Below are positions 25,667-37,182 of a stretch of DNA of 64,000 bases, in pieces. A program made the position numbers and the translations under genes. Below the pieces are notes generated by a model. It was not told the origin of the DNA. It worked only from the letters and a program-made list of their open reading frames with translations, and did not search any database. Source of the DNA: Kineococcus aurantiacus (GTDB lineage: Bacteria > Actinomycetota > Actinomycetes > Actinomycetales > Kineococcaceae); NCBI RefSeq assembly GCF_013409345.1, contig NZ_JACCBB010000001.1, positions 2,542,001 through 2,606,000 on the forward strand, written 5' to 3'. Numbering within the stretch: the stretch's first letter is position 1; every line of letters starts with the position of its first letter.

Positions 25667-27748
25667 TCAGTCCGCCTCGACCGCCAGCTCGGCCCACACC
25701 GTCTTGCCGTGCGGCCCCGGCCGCACGCCCCAGGCGTCGGCGACGGCCTCGACGATGCCCAGGCCCCGCCCGCCCAGGGCGTCGGGGGTCATGGCCCGCT
25801 CGTGCGGGGCGCGGGGGGAGGTGTCCTCGACGGCGATGGTCAGCCGCCGCTCGGCGCCGTCGAAGCGCAGGGTCAGCCCGGCGCCGCCGCCGGTGTGGAC
25901 GAGGGCGTTGGTGACGAGCTCGGACAGCACGAGCTCGGCCTCGTCGAGCAGCTCGTCGGTGGACCAGGCCGTGAGCCGGTCGCGCAGGAACTCCCGGGCC
26001 GTGGCGACCGCGCGGATGTCCGGCGGCAGCCACGAGGACGCCTCCAGGCGCCCGGCGACCGTGCCCGCGAACGTCGCCACGAGCATGGCCGCGTCGTCGG
26101 TGAGCTCGTGCGGGATCGCGGCCATGACGGCCGTGGCGAGGAACTCGGCGGACCGGCCCGGGTCCCCCGCGAGGGCCTCGTGCAGCGTCCGGCGCAGCAC
26201 CCGCTCACCGCGTTCGGAGCCCTCCCCGAGGACCTCGACGACCCCGTCGGTGTGCAGCACGACCGCGCTGCGCCCCAGCAGCCGGTACCGCGTGCCCGGG
26301 TAGGTGGCGTCGCGGTCGACCCCCAGCGGCGGGCCGGGGTCGACGGCGACCTCGTGGAACCCCGACTCGTCGACGACCAGCGGCGGCTGGTGCCCGGCCG
26401 AGGCCACCGACAGGATCCCGGCCGCGGTGTCCAGCCGCACCAGGCAGCAGGTCGCGAACCGCTCGGCGTCCAGGTCGACCAGCAGCCGGTTCGTGCGCTC
26501 CAGCGCGGCGGTGGGGTCGTGGCCCTCGCTGACGTACGCGCGCACCGCCGTCCGCAGCTGACCCATGAGGCCCGCCGCGCGCGTGCTGTGGCCCTGGACG
26601 TCGCCGATGATGAGCGTGACGTCGTCCCCGCTCTGCACGGCGTCGTACCAGTCGCCGCCGATCTCGGCGCCCGCCAGGGCCGGGGCGTAGCGCGTCGCGA
26701 TCTGCAGGCCGTTGTGGTGGGGCAGGCGGCTGGGCAGCAGACCGCGCTGCAGGTCGCGGGCCAGCCGGTCCAGCGCCTCGTGGGAGCGGGACAGGGCTTC
26801 GCGGGAGGACCGTTCGGCGTCGAGCAGGTGGGCGCGTTCGAGCGCGACGGCGACCTGCAGCGCGACACCGGCGAACAGGTCCAGGTCGGCGTGGTCCAGG
26901 GGGGACCGGTCGCCCCAGTTCACGGTGAGCGCGCCGAGGACCTGGTCGTCGCGCCCGGCGAGCGGGACGACGAGGGTGACGCCGACGACCTCGGGGTCCA
27001 GGCCGTCCAGGCCCCGGTAGCGCCCCACCTCCTCGCGGGTCACGACGAGGGGGCGGCCGGTGCGGACGGCCTCGGCGACGGGGGTGTCGGCCAGCCGGTG
27101 GCTGCGCTGGACGCGGTCGCGCCACTCCTGCGGCCACTGCGGGTGGCGCTCGCCGACGAGGTCGTCGCCGTCGAGGACGTGCAGGGACGACGACAGGCAG
27201 TCCAGGACGTCGAGGACGGCGGCGGGGATGCGGGCGGTGATCTCGGCGGTCGTGGCGCTCGTCTGCAGCAGCCCCGTGATGCGTTCGAGCAGGGCCGAGC
27301 GGGCCGCCGAGCGGGCCGCGGACCGCTCGGCCGCGGCCAGCAGGGTCGTCTCGACGGCCATCCCCAGGGTCAGGGCCAGAACGGCCGCGGCCTGCTCCTC
27401 CTCGGCGTCGAAGGGCCGCTCGCGGGTCAGCAGGAGGGTCCCGCGGGCGCCCGCGGCGTCCAGGGGGGCGACCACGGCGTGCGGGGCCGTGCGGGCCAGC
27501 CCCGGCACGGTCAGGTCGCGGTGGGTGCCGGGCCCGGCGGTGGCGGGTGCGTCGGGGTCGAGGAGCACGTCGCCGTCGAGGAGGTGCAGGGGGCGGTGCG
27601 CGTCGGTGCCGGCGAACCGGACGACGCAGTGGTCGGCCCCGGTCGCGTCCCGGGCGGCGCGGCTGGCGGCGCGCAGCAGGGTCGGCAGGTCGGCCGCGAC
27701 CTCCGGCCGCGTGATGACCCGGAGGTGGTGGTGCAGGCCGTCGAGCAC
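25667..27748 (-). CDS. GAF-PP2C(SpoIIE)-HATPase multidomain phosphatase/regulator
   Basis: From the GTG at 27748 the product has 693 residues. The domain order is GAF-like (about 15-140), a second GAF (about 155-325: LQTSATTAEITARIPAAVLDVLD ... LFAGVALQVAVALERA), and a SpoIIE/PP2C phosphatase (about 360-560). The PP2C part shows GGDWYDAV, LIIGDVQGHS and HTDGVVEV. A C-terminal RsbW-like ATP-binding domain (about 575-693) shows ELVTNALVHTGGGAG and GGRGLGIVEAVADAWG. Such proteins set anti-sigma/anti-anti-sigma balance through both dephosphorylation and phosphorylation. The reading frame stays open upstream into the LysR gene, but that is antisense-free shadow; the GTG was chosen at the domain start. 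A ribosome site is weak (GGGAG adjacent). Confidence 0.85.
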   Translation of the reverse strand: MLDGLHHHLRVITRPEVAADLPTLLRAASRAARDATGADHCVVRFAGTDAHRPLHLLDGDVLLDPDAPATAGPGTHRDLTVPGLARTAPHAVVAPLDAAGARGTLLLTRERPFDAEEEQAAAVLALTLGMAVETTLLAAAERSAARSAARSALLERITGLLQTSATTAEITARIPAAVLDVLDCLSSSLHVLDGDDLVGERHPQWPQEWRDRVQRSHRLADTPVAEAVRTGRPLVVTREEVGRYRGLDGLDPEVVGVTLVVPLAGRDDQVLGALTVNWGDRSPLDHADLDLFAGVALQVAVALERAHLLDAERSSREALSRSHEALDRLARDLQRGLLPSRLPHHNGLQIATRYAPALAGAEIGGDWYDAVQSGDDVTLIIGDVQGHSTRAAGLMGQLRTAVRAYVSEGHDPTAALERTNRLLVDLDAERFATCCLVRLDTAAGILSVASAGHQPPLVVDESGFHEVAVDPGPPLGVDRDATYPGTRYRLLGRSAVVLHTDGVVEVLGEGSERGERVLRRTLHEALAGDPGRSAEFLATAVMAAIPHELTDDAAMLVATFAGTVAGRLEASSWLPPDIRAVATAREFLRDRLTAWSTDELLDEAELVLSELVTNALVHTGGGAGLTLRFDGAERRLTIAVEDTSPRAPHERAMTPDALGGRGLGIVEAVADAWGVRPGPHGKTVWAELAVEAD

Positions 27749-27795
27749 TCCCGCACCGTAGCGACGCCGGCGGTGGACGTCCCGCCGGAGGGTGC

Positions 27796-28689
27796 TCAGA
27801 CCGAGCGCGACAGGCTGGAGGGGCCGCTGGACAGGACGGCCGCGGCCAGGGCGCGGGAGGCCGGGCGGTCCCGCGTCTTGGGGTTGGTGAGCAGCACGAG
27901 GTCGATCTGCCCCAGTTCGGGCAGCTTGTGCTGCGCGCCGAGGGCGACGAGCTGGACGGGGACCAGGGAGCTGGCCAGGCAGGAGACGCCGATGCCAGCG
28001 GCGACGGCGGCGATGAGCCCGTTGACGCCGCGGCACACGCACGCGGAGCGGTAGCCGATCCCGACCCGGTCGAGGGCCTCGTGCATCGCGGCCCCGCTCA
28101 GCGAGGGGGAGGGGTAGACCGCCAGGGGGACCGGCTGGGTCAGGTCGAGCCGGGTCGAGGGGTTGCCCACCCAGACGAGCCGTTCGCGCTTGACCAGCTC
28201 GCCCTCGCCGGAACGGGGGGGCCGCTTGCCGATGAAGATGTCCAGGCGGTCGTTCTCCAGCCGGCGGTGCAGGGTGCCGGACTGGTCGACGGTGAGCTCG
28301 AGGTCGACGCGGGGGTTCTCGGAGCGGAAGTCCCGCAGGATCTGCGGCAGCCGGGTCAGGGCCAGGTCGTCCGACATCCCGATGCGCAGCCGCCCCACGG
28401 GCCGGGCCCCGGAGAAGTACGCGGCGGCCTGCTCGTGGGAGGCGAGGATGGAGCGCGCGAAACCGATCATGGCCTCGCCGTCGGGGGTGAGGGCGACCGA
28501 GTGGGTGTCGCGGTGCACGAGCTGGCGGCCCACGGAGTCCTCCAGCTTGCGCAGGTGCTGGCTGACGGTGGACTGCCGGACCCCCAGCCGGGCGGCGGCC
28601 TGGGTGAAGGAGTGGGTCTGCGCGACGGCCAGGAAGGAGCGCAGCTGCACCGGCTCGAACGTCCCCGTCGGTCCCTGGGCCACCGCCAC
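27796..28689 (-). CDS. LysR-family transcriptional regulator
   Basis: The winged helix-turn-helix (QLRSFLAVAQTHSFTQAAARLGVRQSTVSQHLRKLEDSVG) is followed by a substrate-binding domain, GRLRIGMSDDLALTRLPQIL. I start at the GTG at 28689, 5 nt after GGAG, giving about 297 residues. An ATG pair at 28713-28716 is also in frame, but it lies inside a perfect dyad that looks like the operator. It is divergent from an MFS exporter gene, which it presumably controls. The effector is unknown. Confidence 0.85.
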   Translation of the reverse strand: MAVAQGPTGTFEPVQLRSFLAVAQTHSFTQAAARLGVRQSTVSQHLRKLEDSVGRQLVHRDTHSVALTPDGEAMIGFARSILASHEQAAAYFSGARPVGRLRIGMSDDLALTRLPQILRDFRSENPRVDLELTVDQSGTLHRRLENDRLDIFIGKRPPRSGEGELVKRERLVWVGNPSTRLDLTQPVPLAVYPSPSLSGAAMHEALDRVGIGYRSACVCRGVNGLIAAVAAGIGVSCLASSLVPVQLVALGAQHKLPELGQIDLVLLTNPKTRDRPASRALAAAVLSSGPSSLSRSV

Positions 28690-28728: not shown

Positions 28729-28854
28729 CTGATAAGCCGTCTACCGAGCTGCAGCATAGCGCGGTGGGACCCGATGATGGGGGAGCGACGTCGGTGGCCC
28801 CGGGTCACCGCCCCCGACCGACACCCCGCGGGACAGCACGAGAGGTACCAGTCC

Positions 28855-30174
28855 GTGACACCGGCAGCCGCCGAAGCCGGCGCAGAACCCACCCCGACCA
28901 CCACCGCACCCACCACGGCGCCCACCGCCGCACCCACCGGGCGGGCCACCTTCGCCGCCCTGCGCGTGCGGAACTTCCGGATCTACGCCACCGGCCAGGC
29001 CTTCGCCAACACCGGCGTGTGGGTGCAGAACATCGCCCTCGACTGGCTCACCCTCGAACTCACGCACTCCCCGGCTGCCGTCGGCATCGCCATGGCGCTG
29101 CAGTTCCTGCCGATCCTGCTGTTCGGGATGCACGGCGGGATGATCGCCGACCGCTACCCCAAGCGGACCATCCTGATCGTCACGCAGCTGTGCAGCGCCA
29201 GCGTCGCGGCCACGCTCGCCGTGCTCACCACCACCGGGCACGTCACCGTCGGCGCGATCTACGCGCTGGCCCTGGTCGCCGGGTTCGTCATCGCCCTCGA
29301 CAACCCCACGCGGCAGGCCTTCGTCGGCGAGGTCGTCCCGCCGCAGCACCTGCGCAACGCGGTCGCGCTCAACGCCGCGGTGTTCCAGAGCACCCGCCTC
29401 GTCGGGCCCGCGCTGTCGAGCGTGCTCATCGGGACCGTCGGCCCCGGCTGGGCGTTCGCCGTCAACGCCCTGCTCTACGTGGGACCCACGATCACCCTGT
29501 CCTCGATGCGCACCGCCGAGCTGCAGCCCCCCGCGGCCGTCCCCCGCGCCCGCGGGCAGTTGCGGTCGGCGCTGCGGTACGTCGCCGACCGCCCGCACGT
29601 GGGCTGGACCATCGCCCTCGTCGGGGTCTTCGGCACCTTCGGGCTGAACTTCCCCGTCGTGCTGACCGCCATGGCCTCGGACACGTTCGACGCCGGCGCC
29701 GGGCTCTACGGCACGTTCAACGTCGTCCTGGCCGTCGGGTCCATCGCCGGGGCGCTGCTGGCCGGCGCCCGCAGCCACTCCCGGCTCCGGCTGATCCTGC
29801 TGCTCGGCGCGGGTTTCGGCGTGGCGCAGACCCTCGCGGCGCTCGCGCCGAACCTCGGGTCCTTCGTGGTGGCCCTGGTCGTCATGGGCGTCACGAACCT
29901 CGCCTTCCAGGCCATCGCGAACTCCTCGGTGCAGCTGTGGGTCGACCACGAGTACCGCGGTCGGGTGATGGGCCTGTACGCCCTGGTGTTCATGGGCGGC
30001 ACCCCGATCGGCGGGCCCGTCGTGGGGTGGGTCACCGAGCACGTCGGGGTCCGCGCGGGCATGGCCCTGTGCGGCACCGTCCCCCTCGTCGCGGCCGTCG
30101 CCGTGGCCGGGGTGCTGGCCCTGCAGCCGGTCCTGGCCCGGCGGCGCGCGGCGGCGGCCGCCCTCGCCGGCTGA
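28855..30174 (+). CDS. MFS transporter (DHA3/EntS-like exporter)
   Basis: I chose the GTG at 28855, preceded by AGAGG with a 9-nt gap. An upstream ATG at 28774 is possible. The 439-residue protein has a Thr/Pro-rich N-terminal tail, then about twelve membrane segments starting with NFRIYATGQAFANTGVWVQNIALDWL. The conserved DRYPKRTILI loop follows segment 2. This N-terminus resembles the enterobactin-exporter (EntS/DHA3) group. Small-molecule efflux under control of the divergent LysR protein is likely. It converges on the ThrRS-like gene. Confidence 0.88.
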   Translation: MTPAAAEAGAEPTPTTTAPTTAPTAAPTGRATFAALRVRNFRIYATGQAFANTGVWVQNIALDWLTLELTHSPAAVGIAMALQFLPILLFGMHGGMIADRYPKRTILIVTQLCSASVAATLAVLTTTGHVTVGAIYALALVAGFVIALDNPTRQAFVGEVVPPQHLRNAVALNAAVFQSTRLVGPALSSVLIGTVGPGWAFAVNALLYVGPTITLSSMRTAELQPPAAVPRARGQLRSALRYVADRPHVGWTIALVGVFGTFGLNFPVVLTAMASDTFDAGAGLYGTFNVVLAVGSIAGALLAGARSHSRLRLILLLGAGFGVAQTLAALAPNLGSFVVALVVMGVTNLAFQAIANSSVQLWVDHEYRGRVMGLYALVFMGGTPIGGPVVGWVTEHVGVRAGMALCGTVPLVAAVAVAGVLALQPVLARRRAAAAALAG

Positions 30175-30219
30175 GGTCCGGGCGGCCGCGGTCCAGCGGA
30201 GGGGTTCAACGGGCGCGGT

Positions 30220-31401
30220 TCAGCGGGCGCGGCGCGCCACCTCGTCGAGGAGTTCGCGGTGGAACCGCCCGACGGGGACGTTCCGGCCCCCGACGGCCAC
30301 CGAACCGTCCGCGACCTCGGCGTCCCCCACGACCGCCACGTGCGCGACGCGCTGCGCCCGGGCCTCGCGCAGCCGCCGGTTCAGCGGACCGTCGGCGTCC
30401 ACCTGCACCCGCAGGCCCGCGAACCCCCGGGCGACCGCCGCGGCCCGCTCGCCGTGGCGCTCGCCGCTGACCGGCAGGACCCGCAGCTGGACCGGGGACA
30501 GCCAGGTGGGCAGCCGCCCGCCGTCGCGTTCCAGCAGCACCGCCACGAGGCGTTCGACCGAGCTCAGCAACCCGCGGTGGACCATCACGGGCCGGTGCCG
30601 AGCGCCGTCGCGGCCCACGTACTCCAGGCCGAACCGTTCCGGTTGCACGTGGTCGACCTGGACGGTCGACAGGGTCTCCTCCCGGCCCGCGGCGTCGGCG
30701 ACCTGCACGTCGACCTTGGGTCCGTAGAACGCCGCCTCGCCCGGCGCCACGTCGTGGGGGCGGTCGCCCAGGGCCTGCCGCAGCTGGTCCTCGGCGCGCC
30801 GCCACACCTCGTCGTCGCCCAGGTGCGCACCCCTGTCCCCGCGGACCGACAGGCGGAACCGGGCGACCGGGATCCCCAGCACCGCGTACGCCTCCTCGAT
30901 CGCCGACAGCGCCAGCCGCACCTCCTCCACGACCTGGTCGGGGCGGCAGAACGAGTGCGCGTCGTCGAGGTTGATCTGCCGCACCCGGCGCAGACCGGTG
31001 AGGACGCCGGACAGCTCGCTGCGGAACATCGACCCCAGCTCGGCGTACCGGACGGGCAGGTCCCGGTAGCTGTGCGGCCGGGCCGCGTACACCTGGGTGT
31101 GGTGCGGGCAGTTCGCCGGGCGCAGCACGTACTCCTCCGCGCCCACGCGGACGGGCGCGAACATGTCGGCGGAGAACTTCTGCCAGTGCCCCGAGCGCTC
31201 GAACAGCTCGCGCTTGGCGAGGACGGGGGTGTGCACGCGCCGGCAGCCGGTGCGCACCGACAGGTCGAGGGCGAAGCGTTCGAGCTCACCGCGGACCACG
31301 GCGCCGTCGGGCAGCCACAGCGGCAACCCGGGACCCACGAGCGGGGAGGTGTCGAACAGGTCGAGCCCACGGCCGACGTGGGAGTGCTGCTGGTCGTTCA
31401 C
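30220..31401 (-). CDS. Truncated threonyl-tRNA synthetase paralogue (catalytic and anticodon domains only)
   Basis: The GTG at 31401 lies 6 nt after AGGAGG, and the product has 393 residues. The class II core is intact. Motif 2 is MFRSELSGVLTGLRRVRQ, and the ThrRS zinc ligands are Cys in RPANCPHH, His in LDDAHSF and His in MVHRGLLSS. Motif 3 is SSVERLVAVLLE. The C-terminal anticodon-binding domain follows (WLSPVQLRVLPVSGERHG, VVGDAEVADGSVAVGGRN). The N-terminal TGS and editing domains of normal ThrRS (about 640 residues) are absent. It could charge tRNA-Thr under starvation or give resistance to a ThrRS inhibitor. A leader peptide with three Thr codons precedes it. Confidence 0.88.
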   Translation of the reverse strand: MNDQQHSHVGRGLDLFDTSPLVGPGLPLWLPDGAVVRGELERFALDLSVRTGCRRVHTPVLAKRELFERSGHWQKFSADMFAPVRVGAEEYVLRPANCPHHTQVYAARPHSYRDLPVRYAELGSMFRSELSGVLTGLRRVRQINLDDAHSFCRPDQVVEEVRLALSAIEEAYAVLGIPVARFRLSVRGDRGAHLGDDEVWRRAEDQLRQALGDRPHDVAPGEAAFYGPKVDVQVADAAGREETLSTVQVDHVQPERFGLEYVGRDGARHRPVMVHRGLLSSVERLVAVLLERDGGRLPTWLSPVQLRVLPVSGERHGERAAAVARGFAGLRVQVDADGPLNRRLREARAQRVAHVAVVGDAEVADGSVAVGGRNVPVGRFHRELLDEVARRAR

Positions 31402-31413
31402 GGGGTTCCTCCT

Positions 31414-31542
31414 GCGGTCAGGGGGTTCCCGGGCACGGGGGGAGCCCGGGGGTGACCCCCGGGGCTCGGACGGGTTCAGCTCAGCGCTGACCGCGACGCC
31501 GGGAGTGGACCGGCGTCGTCGTGCGGTGCCCGCTGGGGCACC
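31414..31542 (-). promoter_or_regulatory. Candidate threonine attenuator (alternative RNA hairpins)
   Basis: Reading the minus-strand transcript 5' to 3', four elements appear. Hairpin A is GGTGCCC/GGGCACC (31525-31542). Hairpin B has 9-bp arms CGACGCCGG and CCGGCGTCG (31510-31518 and 31494-31502) that cover Thr codons 2 and 3. Hairpin C is a GC-rich stem at 31442-31467, with 11 pairs and one bulge. GCGGTCAG (31487-31494) is complementary to CTGACCGC (31414-31421), directly beside the AGGAGG (31408-31413). No U-tract follows hairpin C, so control could be translational as well as transcriptional. The mechanism is inferred. Confidence 0.5.
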
Positions 31543-31558
31543 CGCTGCTGAGACTCAC
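31481..31558 (-). CDS. Candidate threonine-rich leader peptide
   Basis: The short frame runs GTG (31556-31558) to TGA (31481-31483) and encodes 25 residues. They include three consecutive ACG threonine codons (31514-31522) in the context GHRTTTPVHS. Its stop lies 13 bases before hairpin C and about 80 bases before the ThrRS-like start. The ribosome site is poor (GGGTGG), which lowers certainty. Confidence 0.45.
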   Translation of the reverse strand: MSLSSGCPSGHRTTTPVHSRRRGQR

Positions 31559-31728
31559 CCACCCACCGTGGCACGCGCCCCGGCGGGCGTCCACCGGTTT
31601 CCCGGTGCCGGGGTGACCGGGGGTCGACCGCCGCGTCCGGACCGTGGTGGCCGGTGCGGGCCTGTGGACGGACGGCGGGGCGGTTCCCCGCGCCCGGCCT
31701 AGCGTCCGCGGACCGGGAGGAGGTGCGC

Positions 31729-32979
31729 GTGGACGAGTTGTCGACGCTGTCGGTCGAGGCGGCCGACGCCACGGCCGCCGCGGCCCGCGCGGCCGCGGCC
31801 TGCGCGCAGCAGGTCGCCGACCGCGTGGACGCCACCGTCGCCTCGCTCGGTGGGTGGTACGGCGTGGCCCGCGACGGTTTCGGCGACCGCGCCGCCGAGC
31901 TCGCCGGGGACCTGGGCGCCCTGACGTCCACCGCCGCCGCGGGGGCCGGCCTCGTCGCGGAGTACGCGTTCGGGCTCGGCGTCCTGCAGGCCAGGCTGCG
32001 GCGCGTCGACACCTCGATCGCGCAGGTGCAGGCGCGCGTGGACGCCGGGGTCGGCGACCTCGCCGCGTTCCACGCCGACCGGGCCGAGCTGGAGCACTGG
32101 GGAGGCAGCCGGCTCGCCGTCCTGGCCGACTTCGACGAGCTGGGTGAGACGTTCGCGGCGCGCATGTTCGCCGTCCTGGACCACGTGGACGGCCGGCCCC
32201 GCCGGTTCGGCGAGCACGTCGACGACGCCGCCCGGACCCTCGCGGACTCCGCGCGCGACAGCGCCTACCTGGCCGCCGGCTGGGCCTGGGACGCGCCCGG
32301 GTGGACGGCGACGGTCCGGCGGACCCCCGCCGCCCTCCTCGACGCCGTGGCGCACCCCGTCCGGACCCTCGCCGACGCCGTCGCCTGGGACGACTGGTCC
32401 AGCGGCCGGTACGGGGCGGGGACCGCGACGCTCGGGGCGGCGTTCGTCGGGCGGGGGTTCTCCCGGGGCGGGCGGCTCGGGAAGGTGCTGCCCGAGGGGC
32501 ACCGGTGGTCGAGGTACCTCGACGCCGACGGGAACCCGCTGCCGCAGAGCGTGGAGGAGCTGTACGCGGGCGTGGACCTGGGGCGCAGCGAGGTGTTCTG
32601 GGACGCGCACACCGCCGACCGGCACGTGGAGGTCGACGACGGGTTCCTGCGGCGGAGGCTGGACACGGGGGCGGTCGAGGGAGGGCGGGTGCTGCGGCCC
32701 CCTCCCCAGGCGTCGCGCTTCGCCGACCAGGCGAGCGCCGAGAAGGTGATCACGGACGCGTTGCGGTTGCGGCGCGAACAGGTCGACCGGGAGATCGCCC
32801 TCGGGAAGGTCGACGTGAGCGTCACCGCACCGGCCGGGTCCGAGGCGGGTGTGGTCTGGTCGAGGGACGGGCACGGCGGGCACGTCCGCGTTCCCGTGCA
32901 GCAGGTGAAGGTCGTCCTCTCCAGGAGCGGCGACGGGTCGTGGTACGTGAGAACCGCCTACCTGGAAGGATCGTCGTGA
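31729..32979 (+). CDS. WXG-type polymorphic toxin with RNase A-like C-terminal domain
   Basis: The GTG at 31729 with GGGAGGAGGT 5 nt upstream gives 416 residues. The N-terminal ~200 residues are Ala-rich helical with a Trp-Tyr-Gly turn (residues 43-45), as in WXG/LXG proteins exported by type VII secretion. From about residue 288 the sequence matches the CdiA-CT RNase A-like fold: DRHVEVDDGFLRRRL (His299, Arg308-310), ASRFADQASAEKVI, and the end YVRTAYLEG with Thr409-x-Tyr411. In that family a His, an Arg and a Thr-x-Tyr pair are catalytic. RNA cleavage in a neighbouring cell is therefore predicted. No T7SS core gene is in the window. Confidence 0.8.
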   Translation: MDELSTLSVEAADATAAAARAAAACAQQVADRVDATVASLGGWYGVARDGFGDRAAELAGDLGALTSTAAAGAGLVAEYAFGLGVLQARLRRVDTSIAQVQARVDAGVGDLAAFHADRAELEHWGGSRLAVLADFDELGETFAARMFAVLDHVDGRPRRFGEHVDDAARTLADSARDSAYLAAGWAWDAPGWTATVRRTPAALLDAVAHPVRTLADAVAWDDWSSGRYGAGTATLGAAFVGRGFSRGGRLGKVLPEGHRWSRYLDADGNPLPQSVEELYAGVDLGRSEVFWDAHTADRHVEVDDGFLRRRLDTGAVEGGRVLRPPPQASRFADQASAEKVITDALRLRREQVDREIALGKVDVSVTAPAGSEAGVVWSRDGHGGHVRVPVQQVKVVLSRSGDGSWYVRTAYLEGSS

Positions 32980-33848
32980 TGAGCCACCCGGTGTCCCTCG
33001 CCTGCTACGGGGAGCTCCAGGACTGCGCGTGCCCCCGCGAGGCGCTGGAGCACGGACTGAGGCGACCCGGCGACCTCGTGGGGTACCGGGACGAGTGGCG
33101 CCGCGTCCTCGACCGCGCGCGGGCGGGGGACTGGCAGGCGGTGATGAACCGCGAGGCGGACGTCAACCTCGTGCTACCCCCGGAGGGCACGTCGTGGGAG
33201 CGGTGGGCCGAGTGGGTCGACCTGCGGTTGACGGAGGTCGCCGCCGACCCGTCGACCGTCGCGCCCCTGCCGTTGCACCGCTCGTCGTCGCTCGTCCGTG
33301 AGGGACTGGTCGACCCGGAGGAGGGTGAGACCGTGCGAGCAGTGCTCGGCGACGTGCTGCTGCCAGAGATCGCCGGCCGCCGGGACTACCTCGTCCTGGA
33401 GGCCCCGCGCGACATCGGGGTCTCCCGCCACCTCGACCGGGGGACGGGGCGGGTGTCGGAGGTGCCGACGCGCCGGATCGGGGTCGTGCTGGAACACCGC
33501 GACGGGGTGCGCGTGGTGGGCGTCCACGCGGCCGACGCGGTGCCGCTGGTGGACGTGGAGGACGTCCGCAGGCGGTGGCCGGTCCTGGCCGCTGCTCTCG
33601 GGGGGTGGTTCAACGACGCGTTGCTGGTGGGCGAGGAGTCCGCGTGGTCCCAGCAGGTGCTGATGCTCGAACAGGAGACGGACGAGCGCCTGGACCTCCT
33701 GGCCACGGAGATCACCGACCTGCTCACGCTGCACGACGCCGACGTGCACGCGGTCGTCGCCTCCGCCGGGTGCTACGTGGAACCGGTCCACCTGCGCCTG
33801 TGGCTGCAGTGGATGGCGTGGCGCATCGGGTACTTCGACTGGAAGTGA
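32979..33848 (+). CDS. Putative immunity protein for the RNase A-like toxin
   Basis: The ATG at 32979 overlaps the toxin stop (TGATG), and a GTG three bases earlier is also possible. The product has 289 soluble residues, acidic overall and rich in Trp/Leu (WERWAEWVDLRLTEVAAD, WLQWMAWRIGYFDWK). I recognise no domain. The immediate overlap with a toxin gene is the hallmark of an immunity partner, so the function is inferred entirely from position. It is large for a CdiI-type immunity protein, and a two-domain or unrelated accessory role is possible. Confidence 0.7.
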   Translation: MSHPVSLACYGELQDCACPREALEHGLRRPGDLVGYRDEWRRVLDRARAGDWQAVMNREADVNLVLPPEGTSWERWAEWVDLRLTEVAADPSTVAPLPLHRSSSLVREGLVDPEEGETVRAVLGDVLLPEIAGRRDYLVLEAPRDIGVSRHLDRGTGRVSEVPTRRIGVVLEHRDGVRVVGVHAADAVPLVDVEDVRRRWPVLAAALGGWFNDALLVGEESAWSQQVLMLEQETDERLDLLATEITDLLTLHDADVHAVVASAGCYVEPVHLRLWLQWMAWRIGYFDWK

Positions 33849-35134: not shown

Positions 35135-35737
35135 TCAGCGCGCAGGCAGGAGGGCCGCCAGGAGGGGGGTGAGCTCGGCCTCCACCTCCTCGAGGGGGAC
35201 GGTCGAGCGGTGGGCGCGGGCCAGCAGCAGGGCGCCCTGCAGCGAGGACTGCACGAGCGTGGCCAGGGAGCGGGTGCGGGCGGCGGGCAGACCGGCGCGT
35301 TCGAGCAGCGTGGCGAGGTCGTCGTGCCAGGAGGCGGACCAGGTGTGGACGGCCTCGCGCAGCACGGGGTTGTCGGCGCTGGTGTCGACGGTGGTCGCGG
35401 CGAACGGGCAGCCCTTGCGGAAGTCGCTGTCGCGCAAGGTGGCCCGCCAGTCCTCGAAGACCTCGTGCAGGGCGTCGAGGGGGTGGCCGCCGTCCTGCAC
35501 GGCGGTCCGCAGCACGCGGCGGCTGACGGTGTCGGCGCGGGCGAGGGCCTCGGCGACGAGCTGGTCCTTGCCGCCGGGGAAGTAGTGCTGGAGGGAGCCG
35601 CGGGGGGCGCCGGCGTGCGCGACGACGTCGCGCATCCCGACGCCGTGGACGCCGCGCTCCTGGATGAGCTCGCGCGCGCTGGCGAGCACCCGGTCTCGGG
35701 CCGAGGGTTTCGTGGTCGCGTTCATGACAGTCGTCAT
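35135..35737 (-). CDS. TetR-family regulator of the adjacent MFS exporter
   Basis: It has up to 200 residues, with the ATG at 35737 or, more likely for protein synthesis, the Met at 35725. The DNA-binding domain is RDRVLASARELIQERGVHGVGMRDVVAHAGAPRGSLQHYFPGGKDQLV. The C-terminal region (DFRKGCPFAATTVDTSADNP) resembles the LmrA/YxaF-type TetR subgroup, where the Cys-containing motif is common. It is divergent from an MFS gene with two identical 14-bp palindromes around both start codons, an arrangement typical of drug-inducible efflux control. Confidence 0.92.
   Translation of the reverse strand: MTTVMNATTKPSARDRVLASARELIQERGVHGVGMRDVVAHAGAPRGSLQHYFPGGKDQLVAEALARADTVSRRVLRTAVQDGGHPLDALHEVFEDWRATLRDSDFRKGCPFAATTVDTSADNPVLREAVHTWSASWHDDLATLLERAGLPAARTRSLATLVQSSLQGALLLARAHRSTVPLEEVEAELTPLLAALLPAR
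35724..35737. promoter_or_regulatory. TetR operator copy 1
   Basis: ATGACAGTCGTCAT, a palindrome with 5-bp arms, overlaps the start region of the TetR gene. An identical copy lies 35 bp away at 35759-35772. Confidence 0.75.
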
Positions 35738-35751
35738 GGTACAACGTCCCC

Positions 35752-37182
35752 ATGCCCTATGACAGTCGTCATAAAGCCCAGCGGCGCAACCCCTGGCTCG
35801 TCGTCGCCGTCGCGTGCCTCGGGATGACCATGAGCTTCCTGACGATCACCGCCACCACCTCCGCCCTCACCTCCATCGCCGACGACCTCGGCCTCGGCCC
35901 CGTCGAGCTCGTCTGGACCTCCAGCGCCTACGCCCTCGCGCTGGCCGCCCTCGTGCTGTCCTCCGGAGCCCTCGGCGACCTCGCCGGCCGCCGCACCGTC
36001 TTCCAGGCCGGCACCGCCGTCATGGGCCTGGGCGCCGTCGTCACCGCCACCGCCACCTCACCCGCCGCCGTCATCACCGGCGAGGTCGTCCTCGGCGCCG
36101 GCGCCGCGCTCGTCGTCCCCAACTCCCTCGCCCTCGTCGCCGGGGCCTTCACCGACCCCCGCCGCCGGGCCTCCGCCGTCGGCGTCTGGGCCGCCTGCTC
36201 CGGCATCGGGCTCGCTGTCGGGCCCGTCGTCGCCGGGGCCCTGCTCAACGCCTGGACCTGGCACGTCGTGTTCCTCGTCGACGTCGCCGTCGCCGTCGTC
36301 GTGCTCGCCGCCTCCCCGTTCGCCCTGCCCGACCCGCGGGTGCCCGGCCGCGGGGTCGACGTGCCCGGGACCGCGCTGGCCACCGCGGCCGTCGCCGGTC
36401 TCGTCGTCACCGTCGTCGAGGGCGGGCGCGCGGGGTTCACCGCCCCCGTCCCGCTGCTCGCCGCCCTCGGCACCGCCCTGGCCGCCGCGGGCTTCGTCGC
36501 CGTCGAACGCCGCAGCGCCCGGCCCGTCGTGCGGTTCGGCGTCTTCGCCGACCGGCGCTCCGTCGCCGCCCTGCTCGTCGCGGGCGTCGCCCTGTTCTCC
36601 TTCACCGGCCTCGCGCTGCTCGCCACCCTGCAGATGCAGCGCGCCCAGGGGTTCTCCCCGCTCGCCTCCGGGACCCGGCTCCTGCCGCTCACGGTCGCCT
36701 ACGTCGTCGTCAGCTCCCTGGCCGCCGCCGTCGTGGCCCGGGCCGGGGCCCGCGCCACCCTCACCGCCGGGCTGGCCTCCACCGTCGCCGGGGTCCTCGT
36801 CCTGCACGGCGCCACCACCGGGTACGGGCGCGAAGCGGCCGGGTTCGTCCTCGTCGGCGCCGGGCTCGGGCTGCTCATCGCCCCCACCACGGCCCTCGTC
36901 GTCGGCGGTGTCGCCCCGGAGCTGACCGGCATGGCCGGGGCGGTCGTCACCACCGTCCGCCAGGTCGGCACCGCCCTCGGCGGCAGCGTCCTGGGGACCG
37001 TCGTCACCCACCGCCTCCCCGCCCACGGCGGCGCGCTCACCCCCGCCGTCCACGACGGGCTGCTCGTCGCGGCCGCCGTCCTGCTCCTCGTCCTCCTCGC
37101 CACGGCCGTGCTGCTGCGCCCGGCCGCCACCCGCCCCGCCCCGGTCACCGCCCGGGACACCCCCGGAGGGATCCTCGCGTGA
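35752..37182 (+). CDS. MFS drug exporter (DHA2 type)
   Basis: The 476-residue protein has about fourteen hydrophobic segments, beginning WLVVAVACLGMTMSFLTITATTSAL. The DHA2 signatures are GDLAGRRTVFQAG after segment 2 and GVWAACSGIGLAVGPVVAGALL in the antiporter motif-C region. The ATG at 35752 lies 7 bases after TACAAC (35740-35745), so the message may be leaderless. The second TetR operator lies inside codons 3-7. Efflux of a toxic compound recognised by the divergent TetR protein is expected. Confidence 0.9.
   Translation: MPYDSRHKAQRRNPWLVVAVACLGMTMSFLTITATTSALTSIADDLGLGPVELVWTSSAYALALAALVLSSGALGDLAGRRTVFQAGTAVMGLGAVVTATATSPAAVITGEVVLGAGAALVVPNSLALVAGAFTDPRRRASAVGVWAACSGIGLAVGPVVAGALLNAWTWHVVFLVDVAVAVVVLAASPFALPDPRVPGRGVDVPGTALATAAVAGLVVTVVEGGRAGFTAPVPLLAALGTALAAAGFVAVERRSARPVVRFGVFADRRSVAALLVAGVALFSFTGLALLATLQMQRAQGFSPLASGTRLLPLTVAYVVVSSLAAAVVARAGARATLTAGLASTVAGVLVLHGATTGYGREAAGFVLVGAGLGLLIAPTTALVVGGVAPELTGMAGAVVTTVRQVGTALGGSVLGTVVTHRLPAHGGALTPAVHDGLLVAAAVLLLVLLATAVLLRPAATRPAPVTARDTPGGILA
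35759..35772. promoter_or_regulatory. TetR operator copy 2
   Basis: This is an identical ATGACAGTCGTCAT, located inside the first codons of the MFS exporter gene. Spacing from copy 1 is 35 bp centre to centre. Confidence 0.75.

Follow-up and report, generated by a model that had tools for sequence, protein, structure and literature searches.

The gene for an auxiliary, editing-less threonyl-tRNA synthetase (ThrRS) in the analysed DNA, a 64,000-nucleotide stretch of the Kineococcus aurantiacus genome referred to here as the window, is preceded by a real and conserved leader reading frame with a run of threonine codons; an earlier note, which had picked out this leader from the letters of the window, was right in essence. 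Comparison of 100 curated loci coupled with pairing analysis of the leader RNA makes it likely, to a high degree, that the arrangement is a ribosome-mediated attenuator that would sense charged tRNA-Thr and thereby control the auxiliary ThrRS. For the attenuator core our confidence is very strong, while a second, translational layer stands at roughly even chances. The features concerned are collected in Table 1.

Table 1. Features of the leader region and the auxiliary ThrRS gene (positions in the window)
Feature	Position	Strand	Remarks
WblC/WhiB7-like box GAAACC	31596..31601	-	2 nt upstream of the -35 element; 5/6 to GAAAWY (published spacing 3 nt)
-35 element TGGACG	31588..31593	-	followed by a 17-nt spacer
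-10 element CACGGT	31565..31570	-	6 nt before the leader GTG
Leader peptide ORF, VSLSSGCPSGHRTTTPVHSRRRGQR (then stop)	31481..31558	-	GTG, 24 codons and TGA; 25 codons
Three ACG (Thr) control codons	31514..31522	-	within the leader ORF
Segment 1 (CGACGCCGG)	31510..31518	-	pairs with segment 2, -21.6 kcal/mol in the window
Segment 2 (TCCCGGCGTCG)	31494..31504	-	partner is segment 1 or 3
Segment 3, 5' arm of the terminator-like hairpin	31456..31467	-
Apex of hairpin 3:4, GGGGGT	31455..31460	-	complementary to segment 5
Segment 4, 3' arm	31442..31452	-	one base shorter than the 5' arm; no T-tract after it
Segment 5, ACCCCC	31421..31426	-	partner is the apex or the Shine-Dalgarno region
Segment 6, thrS Shine-Dalgarno AGGAGG	31408..31413	-	paired in the 5:6 hairpin
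Auxiliary ThrRS	30220..31401	-	catalytic and anticodon-binding domains; no editing domain found

The leader peptide and the auxiliary ThrRS gene

The frame of 25 codons with three adjacent ACG codons that the earlier note described can be read directly on the minus strand, where it precedes a gene that encodes a ThrRS of 393 residues and carries a consensus Shine-Dalgarno sequence. Such a frame is uncommon by chance: when the 319 nt upstream were shuffled 1000 times with dinucleotides preserved, a Thr-Thr-Thr mini-ORF arose in 9 cases, and one was present in 20 of 798 overlapping pieces of that length taken from the window, a count that covers two strands and includes the leader's own pieces. 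The leader RNA (31402-31560) folded better than each of 200 dinucleotide shuffles (z -3.45). Conservation is a stronger test of the leader ORF than the shuffles. A genome contig scan yielded 356 relatives of the editing-less ThrRS, and among the best 80 of these 356, which were analysed, a Thr-run mini-ORF precedes the ThrRS gene in every case (80/80), with Thr-Thr-Thr in 77 and Thr-Thr in three (L031, L040 and L048). The typical peptide of the relatives is M..TTTP[ED]xVPAR followed by a stop, the common Streptomyces-type form being M(K/Q)RA..TTTP(E/D)xVPAR. The curated set of 100 loci, window included, contains 19 loci added beyond the best 80 and anchored with a pattern in which three Thr codons are obligatory, no locus submitted to it having failed; excluded were the window's own copy (L001), L002 and L003 (own longer thrS; weak match), L087, the upstream sequence of which matches that of L005 (K. 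vitellinus), an incomplete locus with a stop (L100), and L105 to L107, which represent full-length thrS. The earlier note had proposed to look for conserved Thr codons in relatives, and three or more are kept in 97 of the 100 curated loci (three in a row in 96, four in one) and two in the other three, with ACG making up 288 of the 298 codons of these runs.

When 394 genomes of the class were searched with a Thr-run/stem pattern, 100 contained matches. Among 30 pattern loci that were examined, window included, 13 possess a short leader frame, and in each of these a ThrRS gene follows; 12 of the genes were assigned by the ORF test and that of L135 by one motif. Of the rest, four carry a longer ORF in frame (44-60 residues) that is not followed by ThrRS, and 13 lack a leader frame; these look like chance matches. 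Upstream of the longer thrS a Thr-Thr-Thr mini-ORF was absent in all three cases examined (the same genome, L105 and L106). The auxiliary gene is present in 5 of 11 Kineococcus genomes searched at E 1e-100, own genome included, while a phylum-wide protein search gave 14 of 396, which is not a prevalence because at most four candidates were scored per genome and the window and three full-length enzymes are counted.

The description of the gene as an editing-less ThrRS paralogue is borne out by its Pfam matches, which are to the class II catalytic and anticodon-binding domains only, and by a longer ThrRS elsewhere in the same genome with 38% identity. Solved ThrRS structures align with the protein over their catalytic part, and each of the three zinc ligands is preserved in 100/100 members of the auxiliary family. 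Gln460 of human ThrRS is reported as a hydrogen-bond partner of borrelidin (PMC4389257); the equivalent position is Leu in 100/100 auxiliary enzymes, as it is in one of the three full-length ThrRS compared, and tolerance of this inhibitor by the auxiliary ThrRS is possible.

The surroundings of the gene were also inspected. On the other side of the leader lies a divergent gene (31729-32979, plus strand), the C-terminus of which matches PF18431 (bacterial CdiA-CT RNAse A domain) and which probably encodes a polymorphic toxin; the ORF that follows (32979-33848) is without a Pfam match and could encode the corresponding immunity protein. Relatives lie in L084, L005 and L087. An MFS_3 exporter gene (28774-30174, plus strand) is convergent with thrS, and among L004-L107 MFS_3 matches beside thrS occur only in the genus-mates L005, L086 and L087. 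Further away are a gene for a GAF-SpoIIE phosphatase-HATPase protein (25667-27796, minus strand) and a divergent pair encoding a TetR regulator and an MFS transporter (35135-37182). Inclusion of neighbours in the regulated unit was considered and rejected, as matches to the window's MFS, LysR and toxin-like genes were confined to loci of the same genus (among L004-L107, E 1e-20, flanks of 1.5 to 4 kb).

Promoter layout and the start of the leader transcript

The promoter of the window reads GAAACC-2 nt-TGGACG-17 nt-CACGGT, and its layout is conserved. A [TC]ANNNT element stands 4-9 nt before the in-frame leader start in 100/100 curated loci, as compared to 12.8 (sd 3.2) per 100 in shuffled sequence; the -10 element takes the form TANNNT in 94 loci, and its distance to the start is 6 or 7 nt in 99 loci and 9 nt in L005. 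Because the -10 element directly precedes the leader start, a leaderless mRNA is predicted, transcription probably beginning at the leader start codon itself (at about 31558). The earlier note had counted a poor ribosome site of the leader among its weaknesses, and the site is indeed poor, albeit the objection is answered by this probable leaderless start, CACGGT being placed 6 nt before the GTG. It had also regarded a transcription start downstream of 31480 as fatal to its proposal, whereas the predicted start falls at the beginning of the leader.

A GAAA box in the register of WblC/WhiB7 promoters is present in 56 of the 100 loci (shuffles: mean 0.1, at most 2), with the full GAAAWY in 32 and a TKGM -35 in 4. 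The published WblC promoter consensus is GAAAWY / TKGMNN / 16-19 bp / TANNNT, and S. coelicolor thrS2 figures as a WblC-activated gene in the available part of that study (PMC7157823). The genome from which the window comes also encodes a WhiB protein that has an RGRPR tail.

RNA pairings at and downstream of the Thr codons

Mutually exclusive complementarity of segment 1 with 2, 2 with 3 and 3 with 4 is present in the window. The hairpin with 9-bp arms that the earlier note had drawn over two of the Thr codons (its stem A; 31518..31510 / 31502..31494, minus strand) corresponds to 1:2 and was recovered, as was the GC-rich stem that follows (stem B), which is the terminator-like hairpin 3:4. 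As RNAalifold on a structure-blind MAFFT alignment recovered 3:4 alone, segments were instead cut by position, and the pairing of each with its own partner was compared with its pairing with the partner from another species over 5000 permutations. The samples were 51 representatives and 25 more diverse ones, this comparison being run with the hairpin of L091 mis-assigned; in addition, permutation was confined to ThrRS-identity clades for all 100 loci (3000 permutations), and partners were swapped within disjoint pairs of nearest relatives.

Co-variation was observed for three contacts, and for each of them 0/5000 permutations reached the observed value. The apex of hairpin 3:4 co-varies with segment 5 at z -11.4 (51 representatives) and -7.9 (25), and within clades at -7.6 to -9.5; in nearest-relative pairs its own partner was better in 30 and the swapped one in 10 of 44. 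Loop and partner change together, for instance GAGT with ACTC (L034), AAGT with ACTT (L027) and GAAC with GTTC (L024). The pairing of segment 5 with the thrS Shine-Dalgarno sequence (5:6) reached z -7.9 and -6.4, within clades -6.2 to -8.2 (own better 27, swapped better 16, of 50), and the best 5:6 duplex pairs at least half of the Shine-Dalgarno sequence in 99/100 loci. For 2:3 the values were -4.9 and -5.1, and the co-variation is seen between clades only: inside clades it was not significant (z -0.9 to -1.4), segment 2 being nearly invariant, and nearest-relative pairs gave own better in 17 and swapped better in 12 of 49. Co-variation says little on stem A (1:2; z -2.7 and -2.0, +1.7 in a run with 39 representatives), since it is near-invariant. 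Pairs of other segments gave values, in the samples of 51 and 25, of +1.1 and +1.8 (2 with 5), +1.1 and +0.9 (1 with 5), -1.3 and -1.3 (1 with 3), and -0.6 and -0.7 (2 with 6).

The earlier note had suggested that compensatory changes be sought in its stems A to C, and the outcome differs among them. Stem B is found in every curated locus, where it was chosen as the best hairpin, and its z-scores (-17.4 and -11.9) are circular because the choice was made by complementarity. The 8-base complement between the leader stop and the bases beside the Shine-Dalgarno sequence (stem C; 31494..31487 / 31421..31414) exists in the window and is not conserved; with z +1.2 and +0.3, and nearest-relative pairs in which the own partner was better in 16 and the swapped one in 26 of 50, it was rejected.

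The hairpin 3:4 of the window is bulged because its 3' arm is one base short. The lack of a U-tract, conceded by the earlier note, holds for the window, and a terminator scan found no site there; the family shows a moderate T excess after the hairpin, the T fraction in successive 6-nt bins being 0.37, 0.25, 0.20, 0.16 and 0.12. The close relatives L084 and L086 have perfect stems with more T after them, and as compared to these genus-mates the hairpin of the window (31442-31467, minus strand) looks decayed, with a bulge and with the following T residues lost. The layout of the window would thus work like an attenuator in which termination is putative, the stem being bulged and lacking both a T-tract and a scan site.

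Thermodynamic folding bears on the translational contacts. In equilibrium folding the Shine-Dalgarno sequence was, on average, equally accessible (0.24) in the two modelled states, and neither a switch nor release of the Shine-Dalgarno sequence was seen in these calculations. With 2:3 imposed, apex:5 appeared in 10 of 100 best folds. Its formation then cost a median of 4.4 kcal/mol over the loci (2 or less in 23 of 100), as compared to a median of 15.4 kcal/mol with 3:4 free to form. In the window the G run is common to 2:3 and apex:5, and the costs were 9.7 and 13.7 kcal/mol, respectively. Mean accessibility was 0.38 once apex:5 had formed. Segment 5 is transcribed before the Shine-Dalgarno sequence, and a kinetic switch is therefore possible.

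Candidate mechanism, alternatives and relation to known systems

The transcript would begin, leaderless, at the leader GTG. Under scarcity of Thr-tRNA, the signal that the leader is proposed to sense, the leading ribosome would stall on the ACG run and cover segment 1; if its footprint is taken to extend about 13 nt beyond the A site, segment 2 is left free. Segment 2 could then pair with segment 3, hairpin 3:4 would not form and RNA polymerase would read into thrS. Where Thr-tRNA is ample, the ribosome would proceed to the leader stop and cover segment 2, allowing 3:4 to form and transcription to end. Read-through RNA may carry a second lock in the 5:6 pairing; the apex, freed from 3:4, would capture segment 5 first and so release the Shine-Dalgarno sequence. 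The loop/anti-Shine-Dalgarno contact suggests control of both transcription and translation. That stem 3:4 ends transcription while its apical loop serves as an anti-sequestor, one stalled ribosome switching on both levels, is in our estimation about an even bet.

Another reading is that control here is by translation only, 3:4 being no working terminator and the leader ribosome governing access to the thrS Shine-Dalgarno sequence alone. It gains from the bulged 3' arm without a U-tract in the window, and from 5:6 and apex:5 being the best co-varying contacts once the circular 3:4 is left aside. GC-rich terminators of actinobacteria, however, often have no clean U-tract. In L084 and L086 the stems are perfect and more T follows them, and the T fraction across the family starts at its highest directly after the hairpin; in the accessible text on S. 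lividans thrL, moreover, the hairpin is reported without a uridine-rich sequence (PMC8079986). We regard control by translation alone as rather unlikely, at perhaps one chance among several.

Still less probable is that the leader reports ribosome-inhibiting antibiotics, or a general stalling at Thr-Pro, in the manner of some upstream ORFs of resistance genes, and not the charging of Thr-tRNA. The WblC-like promoter in part of the family, the place of thrS2 in the S. coelicolor WblC regulon and the Pro that usually follows the Thr run would all fit such a role; yet it is the Thr run that is constant, while the Pro is replaced by Ser in L004 (TTTS) and by G in L096 and L103, and the short leaders among the examined pattern loci invariably precede ThrRS whereas the four longer ORFs do not. 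In E. coli, ThrRS regulates its own gene, thrS, by binding a tRNA-like operator, and the same gene family and a structured leader near the ribosome binding site bring this to mind, but binding of a protein leaves the conserved peptide frame, the Thr codons and the leaderless start unexplained, and we consider autoregulation of this type very improbable. As for a chance arrangement in a GC-rich intergenic region, where stems are easily found at a GC content of about 77 percent (around 30001-32000), conservation and co-variation over 100 loci refute it, and its likelihood is negligible. Ribosome-mediated attenuation responding to Thr-tRNA suggests how a stand-alone editing-less ThrRS stays silent until needed in many actinobacteria, and were the Thr sensor to operate in series with the WblC-like promoter, translation stress and poor Thr charging would both be needed before the gene is expressed.

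Vecchione and Sello are said to have found, in 2010, that the auxiliary tryptophanyl-tRNA synthetase of S. coelicolor is under ribosome-mediated transcriptional attenuation that senses Trp; the present arrangement resembles it in kind, with a different amino acid and a different synthetase. Actinobacterial attenuators have been reported for trp, leuS and trpS, together with the LEU element, in the available text of a comparative study, which states that threonine operons showed no conserved RNA structures in their upstream regions (PMC1262725). The Streptomyces leuS and trpS attenuators described there likewise combine a leader peptide, an antiterminator and a terminator before synthetase genes, their codons being for Leu or Trp, while the LEU element of actinobacterial leuA shares with the present case a leader peptide and long-range pairing that involves the Shine-Dalgarno sequence (PMC1262725). 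In the LEU element, as described in that text, the partner of the Shine-Dalgarno sequence is the run of Leu codons itself, with a pseudoknot (PMC1262725), whereas here the codon run is of Thr and the hairpin loop contacts the anti-Shine-Dalgarno segment. A T-box riboswitch was not indicated, no Rfam family reaching its gathering score in the window, and L034, L010 and L016 gave one unrelated weak hit at E 0.1. The WblC-like box recalls the WblC/WhiB7 regulon, among the activated genes of which thrS2 is listed and for which a GAAAWY / TKGMNN / TANNNT promoter is published; WblC acts on transcription start, a layer above the attenuator, and the portion of that study available describes no thrS2 leader (PMC7157823).

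The closest known system is thrL-thrS of S. lividans TK24 (SLIV_19412/19410), where a Thr leader, MKRVRPFLETTPGFVPAR (then stop), precedes thrS and is reported to be leaderless, with one hairpin and no uridine-rich sequence (PMC8079986), features that it shares with the leader of the window, for which the leaderless start is predicted. Unlike the leader of the window, it has two Thr codons and was recognised in one species from RNA-seq and inspection; an antiterminator, a loop/anti-Shine-Dalgarno contact and a comparative family are not described in the accessible text (PMC8079986). A contact between hairpin apex and anti-Shine-Dalgarno segment was not found described in the literature searched, which covers few subscription papers and in part only portions of the sources. 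The core of the system is thus of a kind already known, of which one member at least has been reported, while the loop/anti-Shine-Dalgarno contact is a variant worth testing, and its co-variation makes dual-level attenuation testable by a few base swaps.
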